Source of the DNA: an uncultured Christensenellaceae bacterium
GTDB taxonomy: Bacteria > Bacillota > Clostridia > Christensenellales > UBA3700
DNA: 64,000 nt
Reading direction: 5' to 3'
Assembly: GCA_944380295.1 (NCBI GenBank)
Contig: CALWHE010000007.1
Span: 1 to 64,000, forward strand
The notes beneath the pieces were generated by a model, which worked only from the letters and a program-made list of their open reading frames with translations, searched no databases and had not been told where the DNA came from. The number at the start of each line of letters is the position of its first letter. Within the stretch, counting starts at the first letter, position 1. The translations under genes and the position numbers were made by a program. Of the stretch, positions 17,383 through 64,000 are shown one piece after another.

Positions 17383-17445
17383 GCGAAAGAGAAAAAGGAT
17401 AAGGCTTTTCCCGTTACAAACGGGAACTGCCTTTTCCTCTTTCGC
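17383..17445 (+). terminator. Large hairpin ending the copA-DAHP synthase transcript
   Basis: An interrupted long stem pairs GCGAAAGAG (17383-17391) with CTCTTTCGC (17437-17445), enclosing a second GGGA-type hairpin around 17409-17427. It lacks a clean T-run, so it may act as a 3'-end stabiliser rather than a classical terminator. Confidence 0.5.
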
Positions 17446-17855
17446 TTCCCGAAAGACAACCCCGGCATTCGCAATCGACGTTATAATTTCATTATACTTA
17501 TATTTGGGGTGCAGCGTTACGCCGCCTCCGCCTCTCTACCGAGAAATCGATTGCTTGAGCCGCGGTTTTCTCTCTTTTTGCGGAACGGTATAACGCTGTT
17601 GTGCGGAGAGATATGCATATTGCAGAGCACGCTTTTGCGGGGGAAATAAGACAGCGTGGTCACCACGCCACTCTTTCCGCCGCCGCGGGAGCGGCGCGCA
17701 AGGCAGTCGCCTTGCCCAAGGTGCGCTCACCGAAAAGCGCGGTTTTCGGTGGCGGGATATTACACTTTACTATGGAAGTATTGCGAAGAGATTAGCCTGG
17801 AAAACAAACAAGCTACATCAAGGCATATAATGGGTGCAGCGGCACGCTGCCCGCC
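17446..17855. other. Gene-free stretch with short palindromes, left flank of the hairpin arrays
   Basis: No credible coding frame. It holds several hairpins, for example GTGGTCACCAC near 17669, GCAAGGCAGTCGCCTTGC near 17697 and CACCGAAAA...TTTTCGGTG near 17728-17752. A block at 17807-17855 (AGGCATATAATGGGTGCAGC and following) recurs inverted at 63828-63878 near the window end. The GGGTGCAGCG...CGCTGCCC hairpin recurs several times around the arrays. Confidence 0.6.
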
Positions 17856-18101
17856 ACGTCCGCGATGCGCCGTGCTGTGCACGGCAGTATGAGCGGACAT
17901 TTCACGTGCCCTCTCGTCGCTCTGCGGTTTGAGGGCACATTTCACGTTTTTGCCTTGTGAGGCAAAAACATTTCACTTTTGCGCGGCAGTATACGTTCGC
18001 TTACCGCTCACTTATATCTGCGCAAAAATTTCACGTCCGGAGCCGCCGAACATTGCTTGCGCTTACTTCGGTTGTTCGGCGGCGCAGGACATAAAGGGGT
18101 G
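17856..18101 (+). repeat. Hairpin-array element, copy A
   Basis: 246 bp. Five consecutive stem-loops: 17858-17898 (GTCCGC/GCGGAC), 17906-17938 (GTGCCCTC/GAGGGCAC), 17946-17969 (GTTTTTGCC/GGCAAAAAC), 17977-18027 (TTTTGCGC/GCGCAAAA) and 18035-18090 (GTCC...GGAC with inner CCGCCGAAC/GTTCGGCGG). The first four are each followed by the same heptamer ATTTCAC (17899, 17939, 17970, 18028). No open frame with a ribosome site. The function is unknown; it resembles a structured RNA or a recombination or transposition substrate. Confidence 0.85.
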
Positions 18102-18182
18102 GAGCGCCCCGCGCTCCCGTCACGCTGCCGCCCCGCGCTCCGGGTGCAGCATTATACTCTAATAGCGCCGCAGGCAGCCGCA

Positions 18183-18428
18183 ACGTCCGCGATGCGCCGT
18201 GCTGTGCACGGCAGTATGAGCGGACATTTCACGTGCCCTCTCGTCGCTCTGCGGTTTGAGGGCACATTTCACGTTTTTGCCTTGTGAGGCAAAAACATTT
18301 CACTTTTGCGCGGCAGTATACGTTCGCTTACCGCTCACTTATATCTGCGCAAAAATTTCACGTCCGGAGCCGCCGAACATTGCTTGCGCTTACTTTGGTT
18401 GTTCGGCGGCGCAGGACATAAAGGGGTG
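18183..18428 (+). repeat. Hairpin-array element, copy B
   Basis: Direct repeat of copy A at an offset of 327 bases over 246 bp, with a single mismatch that I can see (CTTCGG in A, CTTTGG in B, near 18395). It is followed by a GGGGTGCAGCGTCACGCTGC hairpin at 18424 and ends about 40 bases before the promoter of the ArsR operon. Confidence 0.85.
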
Positions 18429-18469: not shown

Positions 18470-18498
18470 TTGACAAGCGCAAATTCGCGGCATATAAT
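18470..18498 (+). promoter_or_regulatory. Promoter of the ArsR-family regulator gene
   Basis: Perfect TTGACA (18470-18475), 17-base spacer, perfect TATAAT (18493-18498). An inverted-repeat operator begins five bases downstream. Confidence 0.88.
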
Positions 18499-63510: not shown

Positions 63511-63745
63511 GTCCTGCGCCACCGAACAAAAGCGAAAAGCGATAAAATGTTCGGCGGCTCCGGACGTGAAATTTTTGCGCAGATATAAGTGAGCGGTAAG
63601 CGAACGTATACTGCTGCGCAAAAGTGAAATGTTTTTGCCAACTTGTTGTCAAAAACGTGAAATGTGCCCTCAAACCGCAAAGCGACGAGAGGGCACGTGA
63701 AATGTCCGCTCATACAGCCGTGCACGGCACGGCGCATCGCGGACG
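63511..63745 (-). repeat. Hairpin-array element, copy C (inverted)
   Basis: Same five-module order as copies A and B when read on the minus strand: 63704-63744, 63664-63696, 63631-63656, 63573-63623 and 63511-63565, separated by ATTTCAC (63697, 63657, 63624, 63566 on this strand as GTGAAAT). Loop sequences differ from A and B in modules 3 and 5, while the stems stay paired. Confidence 0.85.
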
Positions 63746-64000
63746 TGGCGGTGCTGTGGGCACATAAATAGAATATTATAAAACAAGCAAGAGCGACAGA
63801 AAGACGATACAGCTACGCGCTCGTCGTGCGTGGCGGGCAGCGTGCCGCTGCACCCATTATATGCCTTGAAGTAACTTGTTCGTTTTTCCGGCTGATCTCT
63901 TCGCAACAATAGGCAAATGCAATCGGCATGACCATTCACACAACTATGTATTTGGAAAATCAGGGTGCAGCGTCACGCTGCCCGGACAGACGTCTATAAG
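63746..64000. other. Right-hand flank of copy C, no gene seen
   Basis: Bases 63828-63878 repeat, inverted, the block at 17807-17855. Between that and copy C are about 80 bases absent from copy A. A GGGTGCAGCGTCACGCTGCC hairpin at 63963 matches the one after copy B. No coding frame is supported. Confidence 0.6.

Follow-up and report, generated by a model that had tools for sequence, protein, structure and literature searches.

Integron attC sites combine conserved 7-nt boxes (GTTRRRY/RYYYAAC) with variable palindromes and fold in a strand-specific manner, while BOX and NIME/BIME mosaics represent modular intergenic repeats with exchangeable parts. Other bacterial repeats include REPs carrying GTAG and CGTC tags (PMC3733652) and REPINs, which are inverted doublets of REPs (PMC3116915). 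The Gut-1 family (RF01706) has been present in Rfam since 2010, with records from human gut metagenomes only; Rfam curates it as an sRNA gene; its role is unexplained. In Weinberg 2010 (PMC2864571), Gut-1 is listed as RNA “Y” and cis-regulatory “n”, and in its main text that paper is silent on mirrored arms, on copy number and on the terminators of tRNA genes. Among the papers searched, none describes GTGAAAT arrays in Clostridia, and Weinberg 2010 is the only one to name RF01706.

The stretch of DNA considered here (64,000 nt, hereafter the window) harbors at 17856-18101 a chain of five unrelated stem-loops punctuated by four exact copies of ATTTCAC (chain A, Table 1). This layout, proposed in the initial annotation, was upheld by a position check and by the fold z-scores: -6.2 for RNA, -6.9 and -6.4 for the two DNA strands, none of 200 shuffles being as stable. 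A 7-mer occurring at least four times was obtained in 22 of 3000 dinucleotide shuffles, even before stems between the copies were demanded. The reading preferred below, to which we would give an even chance on the sequence evidence, is that the chain works as a REPIN/BIME-type repetitive DNA element, not as an RNA gene, and represents a one-armed, five-hairpin derivative of Gut-1.

Table 1. Hairpin chains of the window and their parts
Feature	Position	Strand	Description
Chain A	17858-18090	+	five hairpins (H1-H5), four linkers
Chain A, hairpin H1	17858..17898	+	outer stem GTCCGC/GCGGAC, inner CCGTGC/GCACGG
Chain A, linker 1	17899..17905	+	ATTTCAC
Chain A, hairpin H2	17906..17938	+	GTGCCCTC/GAGGGCAC
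Chain A, linker 2	17939..17945	+	ATTTCAC
Chain A, hairpin H3	17946..17969	+	GTTTTTGCC/GGCAAAAAC
Chain A, linker 3	17970..17976	+	ATTTCAC
Chain A, hairpin H4	17977..18027	+	TTTTGCGC/GCGCAAAA
Chain A, linker 4	18028..18034	+	ATTTCAC
Chain A, hairpin H5, outer chain end	18035..18090	+	GTCC/GGAC, inner GCCGCCGAACA
Chain B	18185..18417	+	tandem chain nearly identical to A, lying 327 bp downstream; linkers at 18226, 18266, 18297, 18355
Chain C	63511..63744	-	layout as A, other H3/H5 alleles
Solitary H1 remnant	63804..63832	-	GCACGACG class, 60 bp from chain C; read by eye

Chains B and C had been mentioned earlier without their positions; B differs from A at a single place within H1-H5. The mirrored partner arm typical of the relatives described below was looked for within the window for A, B and C, and none was found. 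CRISPR was rejected on layout, the repeat here having 7 nt and the inserts being palindromic, versus long identical repeats and non-palindromic spacers. Around the chains, longer mosaics (window 17384-17850, 18096-18184 and 63750-64000) contain other short repeats, i.e., GGGGTGCAGCGTCACGCTGCC, GGGGTGGAGCGCCCCGCGCTCCC, GCGAAGAGATTAGCC..CAAGTTACTTCAAGGC and GTCCACTTTTGTGGACAG, which recur in many intergenic regions of the same genome.

About 52 chains are situated between genes in the genome of the window (G000, 1.75 Mb). In the 44 chains that were parsed completely, 175 of the 176 linkers are identical (ATTTCAC), so the linker is indeed the constant part, as the initial annotation had claimed, and this holds across many families. 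The stems were also said to differ completely, which is true from position to position; the stems that share a position are alleles of a single hairpin type. Such alleles, with compensated stems, exist at all five positions, e.g., GTCCGC/GCGGAC, GTTTGC/GCAAAC or GCACGACG/CGTCGTGC in H1, GTGCCCTC or GTGCTCTT in H2, TTTTGCGC or TTTTCGGC in H4, and four inner stems in H5. As many as 39 allele combinations occur in the 44 chains, and the mutual information between slots stays at the shuffle level except for H2-H3 (p 0.015, uncorrected); the alleles are shuffled almost freely between the copies, in a manner close to independent. Growth by the addition of hairpins, suggested at the outset, is not borne out here: five hairpins are the rule among the parsed chains of this genome, with few departures (three with an enlarged H2 and a few degraded ones). 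The enlarged H2s (L009, L010, L028) contain one inserted hairpin of the mosaic-repeat kind.

In the covariation test, carried out on an alignment in which H1 of one allele class is misaligned, 98.1% of the cells of the named structure are paired. Cells changed on both sides number 197 versus 58 +/- 8 in the shuffles, none of 500 being as high, a count which is not a probability, since the rows are related; a lack of covariation, one of the outcomes that the initial annotation had held against itself, is ruled out. Compensated stems would, however, also follow from RNA function. The strong covariation and the excess of G-U over A-C on the ATTTCAC strand of the chains speak for Gut-1 being a structured noncoding RNA, in line with its curation in Rfam and its listing in Weinberg 2010, the window containing a many-copy divergent form that acts as RNA, e.g., as a protein sponge or a regulator binding the GUGAAAU or AUUUCAC linkers. 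We regard this as unlikely: there are dozens of copies per genome, and the promoter search gave none for the chain. The one strong hit, a perfect TTGACA-17-TATAAT at 18470-18498, lies 50 bp after chain B and points to arsR, preceding genes for a regulator of the ArsR type and for a heavy-metal ATPase.

The chains are placed at gene 3' ends. According to a simple ORF caller, which supplied the gene neighbors, H5 lies within 10 bp of the stop of a convergent gene, or overlaps it, in 14 of 44 chains, and one of the 28 chains with both neighbors found is located between divergent genes. Orthologous sites differ in the presence of the chain. Chains A and B reside between aroF and arsR; in the nearest relative, Candidatus Caccalectryoclostridium excrementigallinarum (G001, Christensenellales), belonging to the same genus, this site harbors other repeat modules and no chain, and in G003-G005 it contains a terminator or unique DNA (a plain terminator in G003 and G004). 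Directly after the aroF stop, at 17384-17455, there is a long imperfect inverted repeat, AGCGAAAGAGAAAAAGG...CCTTTTCCTCTTTCGCTT, and G001 possesses in the same place a hairpin of like form and different sequence. At the rimI site, a chain is present in both G000 and G001 with different hairpin alleles, and G003 and G005 have a terminator and no chain; the site is thus old enough to be shared by the first two, the hairpins having been exchanged since. The chain supplies the last codons and the stop of rimI (L010 1503-1735 (-), L054, L246), the C-terminus reading MRM-SCAAEQNQ* in G000 and MRM-SCARAQ* in G001.

The location of the elements next to stop codons and after terminators, in many cases those of tRNA genes, together with the native terminators at the orthologous sites of relatives without the chain, would also suit 3' end elements, the hairpins of which, when read through, protect or end the transcripts of neighboring genes in place of the native terminators. 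This seems to us quite improbable, since the T of the stems lies on the 5' side and the A on the 3' side, i.e., the wrong way round for intrinsic terminators (rejected as candidates on this ground), the terminator scan gives weak signals on H3 and H5 only, Gut-1 usually follows a complete terminator, and chain B is found 50 bp upstream of a promoter.

On the opposite strand, the linker reads GTGAAAT. A pattern of three GTGAWAT spaced 18-48 bases apart was detected in up to 40 of 396 genomes of the order, versus about 11 genomes for the reversed-pattern control; the inserts are unrelated perfect hairpins in many of the 40 genomes, some of the matches being chance or plain tandem repeats. Absence outside this genome, likewise foreseen as an objection, is ruled out by these arrays. 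Two linker dialects, GTGAAAT and GTGATAT, are encountered. The best arrays are Gut-1 RNA above the Rfam threshold, with one match per arm on opposite strands (the RF01706 model covers one arm only), while chains A and B, with 28.5 bits (E 0.0038 in 1.3 kb), stay below the 50 bits that the gathering threshold requires. A match to a named Rfam family was another outcome that the initial annotation had held against itself; this objection applies in part, the match to Gut-1 being weak and the role of that family itself unexplained. The link of the window with Gut-1 is strengthened by a canonical Gut-1 of the same genus that passes the threshold (G005, L072, 60.3 bits) and by a chain of G004 having H1 and H2 types as in the window and mixed ATATCAC and ATTTCAC linkers. 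Judged by its letters, the window chain is a distant, divergent, high-copy, one-armed, five-hairpin variant of Gut-1-type elements.

Within the class, RF01706 was recorded in 64 of 391 sampled genomes (46 of 223 genera). One-armed arrays with 6-15 linkers and two alternating hairpin units occur as well (L142-L144, L146, L158, L167 in G042, G045, G104, G393), and the long ones (G042, G393; 8-15 linkers) look as if they had grown by tandem duplication. Phages and plasmids yielded no DNA similarity to the chains; the linker pattern occurs at 80 IMG/VR loci, only two of which contain two or more hairpins, hence this is not a viral element.

Canonical elements, studied outside the window's genus, consist of a left arm with 3-4 GTGAWAT linkers and hairpins and a right arm with 3-4 ATWTCAC linkers and hairpins, separated by a center of usually about 30 nt. 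The arms are mirrored, with 30 convergent pairs and one divergent, and the linker dialect is the same in both arms of all 22 pairs tested. In the best-scoring loci, which are not a random sample, the elements directly follow an intrinsic terminator, which in many cases belongs to a tRNA gene (TTTTTT-CAACGAAAT); the start is often 30-45 nt after the tRNA gene 3' end, behind the terminator of the tRNA operon (L181-L201). In 25 of 30 elements, the center shows complementarity over at least 8 nt with an arm's outermost hairpin, compared with 20% for swapped partners; in L143, L152 and L181-L205, the center strand complements the linker and half of one outermost hairpin. Such complementarity implies a helix competing with the outermost hairpin, i.e., two mutually exclusive folds, as in RNA switches, which counts in favor of the RNA function considered above. 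A rod of linker helices is possible, RNAfold forming part of it for L187. An equal linker number in the two arms was rejected as proof of a paired rod: the correlation of -0.28 is uninformative, because the counts are all 3 or 4. The mirrored arms, loop polarity, center complementarity and terminator placement are a new anatomy for Gut-1, none of them being described in the main text of Weinberg 2010.

The loops bear on the choice between RNA and DNA. Among 232 distinct hairpins of the relatives, the loops on the ATWTCAC strand are C(GNA)G or C(GNNA)G, with the ends G..A in 130 versus T..C in 3, a C-G closing pair in 200, and GNYA (44) exceeding GNRA (21); the terminators of the same loci have no such bias. 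The loop sense depends on the arm (left T..C 50:1, right G..A 45:1; p=2e-25), so that the two arms of any one transcript are opposite in loop sense. Base pairs of the array hairpins are nearly all Watson-Crick; G-U amounts to 0.9% versus 4.7% in the terminators of the same loci, an imperfect control, since A-C is also high in the latter (3.7%), meaning that the terminator search admits spurious pairs. These features argue against an RNA, as one transcript cannot have both arms right, G-U is rare, and GNA and GNYA loops are preferred over GNRA. Triloops of the d(cGNAg) type are stable as DNA. Four motifs were selected for stability as DNA tetraloops in Nakano 2002 (cited in PMC5090098), d(cGNNAg) among them. 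The loop motif, its arm-wise sense and the rarity of G-U favor a fold of single-stranded DNA in which the two arms use different strands, a parallel to the REPINs. This signature comes from outside the window's genus, the window hairpins having larger, different loops, and A and B are devoid of a mirrored arm; both points count against the reading as a REPIN-like DNA element.

The initial annotation had offered a folded single-strand DNA substrate or a modular mobile element; this direction fits best, apart from the growth. As a REPIN-like element, the chain would fold, when its ATTTCAC (ATWTCAC) strand is single-stranded, into a series of small hairpins, with 7-nt tags left unpaired between them. 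A hairpin-binding strand-transfer enzyme, by which the element is or was presumably mobile, or replication-linked recombination might copy elements or their parts into the spaces behind genes and terminators; recombination between the copies, probably at the tags, would swap hairpins position by position, and selection or concerted copying would preserve tags and pairing. We infer the function of the element, too, from these patterns. Searches for a mobilizing enzyme found none: 13 of the 28 genomes with arrays lack a Y1 transposase, and there are no arrays within 1.5 kb of 30 Y1 loci. The genome G000 harbors three truncated, degraded copies of IS200-type Y1 transposase (L066, L067, L068) with no hairpin chains nearby. 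A MITE of a TIR transposon would have terminal inverted repeats and a target-site duplication; presence/absence sites were seen, but amid the other repeats no such duplication was delimited there, and an excision product was not seen either.

The 7-mer, as the only fixed part, present in two matched dialects (GTGAAAT and GTGATAT), could alternatively mark arrays of double-stranded sites for a GTGAWAT-recognizing protein, the hairpins being by-products. This is very improbable in our view: the 7-mer is not enriched outside the chains in the window (2 of 14 ATTTCAC sites), and compensated stems, loop polarity and center-hairpin complementarity would be left unexplained. Extending the DNA element reading to the whole family, we tentatively propose, as a possibility somewhat short of even, that Gut-1 is a Clostridia family of repeats structured as single-stranded DNA, with mirrored ATWTCAC-tagged C(GNA)G/C(GNNA)G arms and a strand-exchange segment, spread behind terminators by a putative enzyme, and that, in the window's genus, one arm became a shuffling cassette of 50 copies. 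Gut-1 obtains from the comparison a definite anatomy and host range, and its nature as a DNA element becomes a testable claim; should this be true, many gut Clostridia possess an uncharacterized strand-transfer system, and a curated RNA family needs re-filing.

With REPs, REPINs and their RAYTs, the elements share short palindromes, a one-sided unpaired tag, inverted pairs, extragenic location, many copies and the occasional supply of stop codons (PMC3116915, PMC3733652). They differ in the tag (ATWTCAC, ATTTCAC in the window, instead of GTAG or CGTC), in the 3-4 different hairpins per arm in the relatives, in stem sequences not conserved between copies, and in the lack of a REP-associated Y1 tyrosine transposase flanked by repeats; the inverted doublet is absent in A, B and C and present in 30 relatives. 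BOX and NIME/BIME mosaics are likewise modular and intergenic with exchangeable parts, but here it is the linker that stays constant, and hairpins unrelated in sequence serve as the modules. The combination of 7-nt constant boxes and variable palindromes recalls attC, but the boxes are GTGAWAT/ATWTCAC and do not conform to its core sites, as the near-invariance of the ATTTCAC linkers (175/176) illustrates. In Gut-1 and the window chains alike, GUGAAAU stands between several hairpins whose sequence is free, but the window chains lack the 5' start CAAUGAAAU, end with H5 and GGACAT, and carry five larger hairpins in a single arm.
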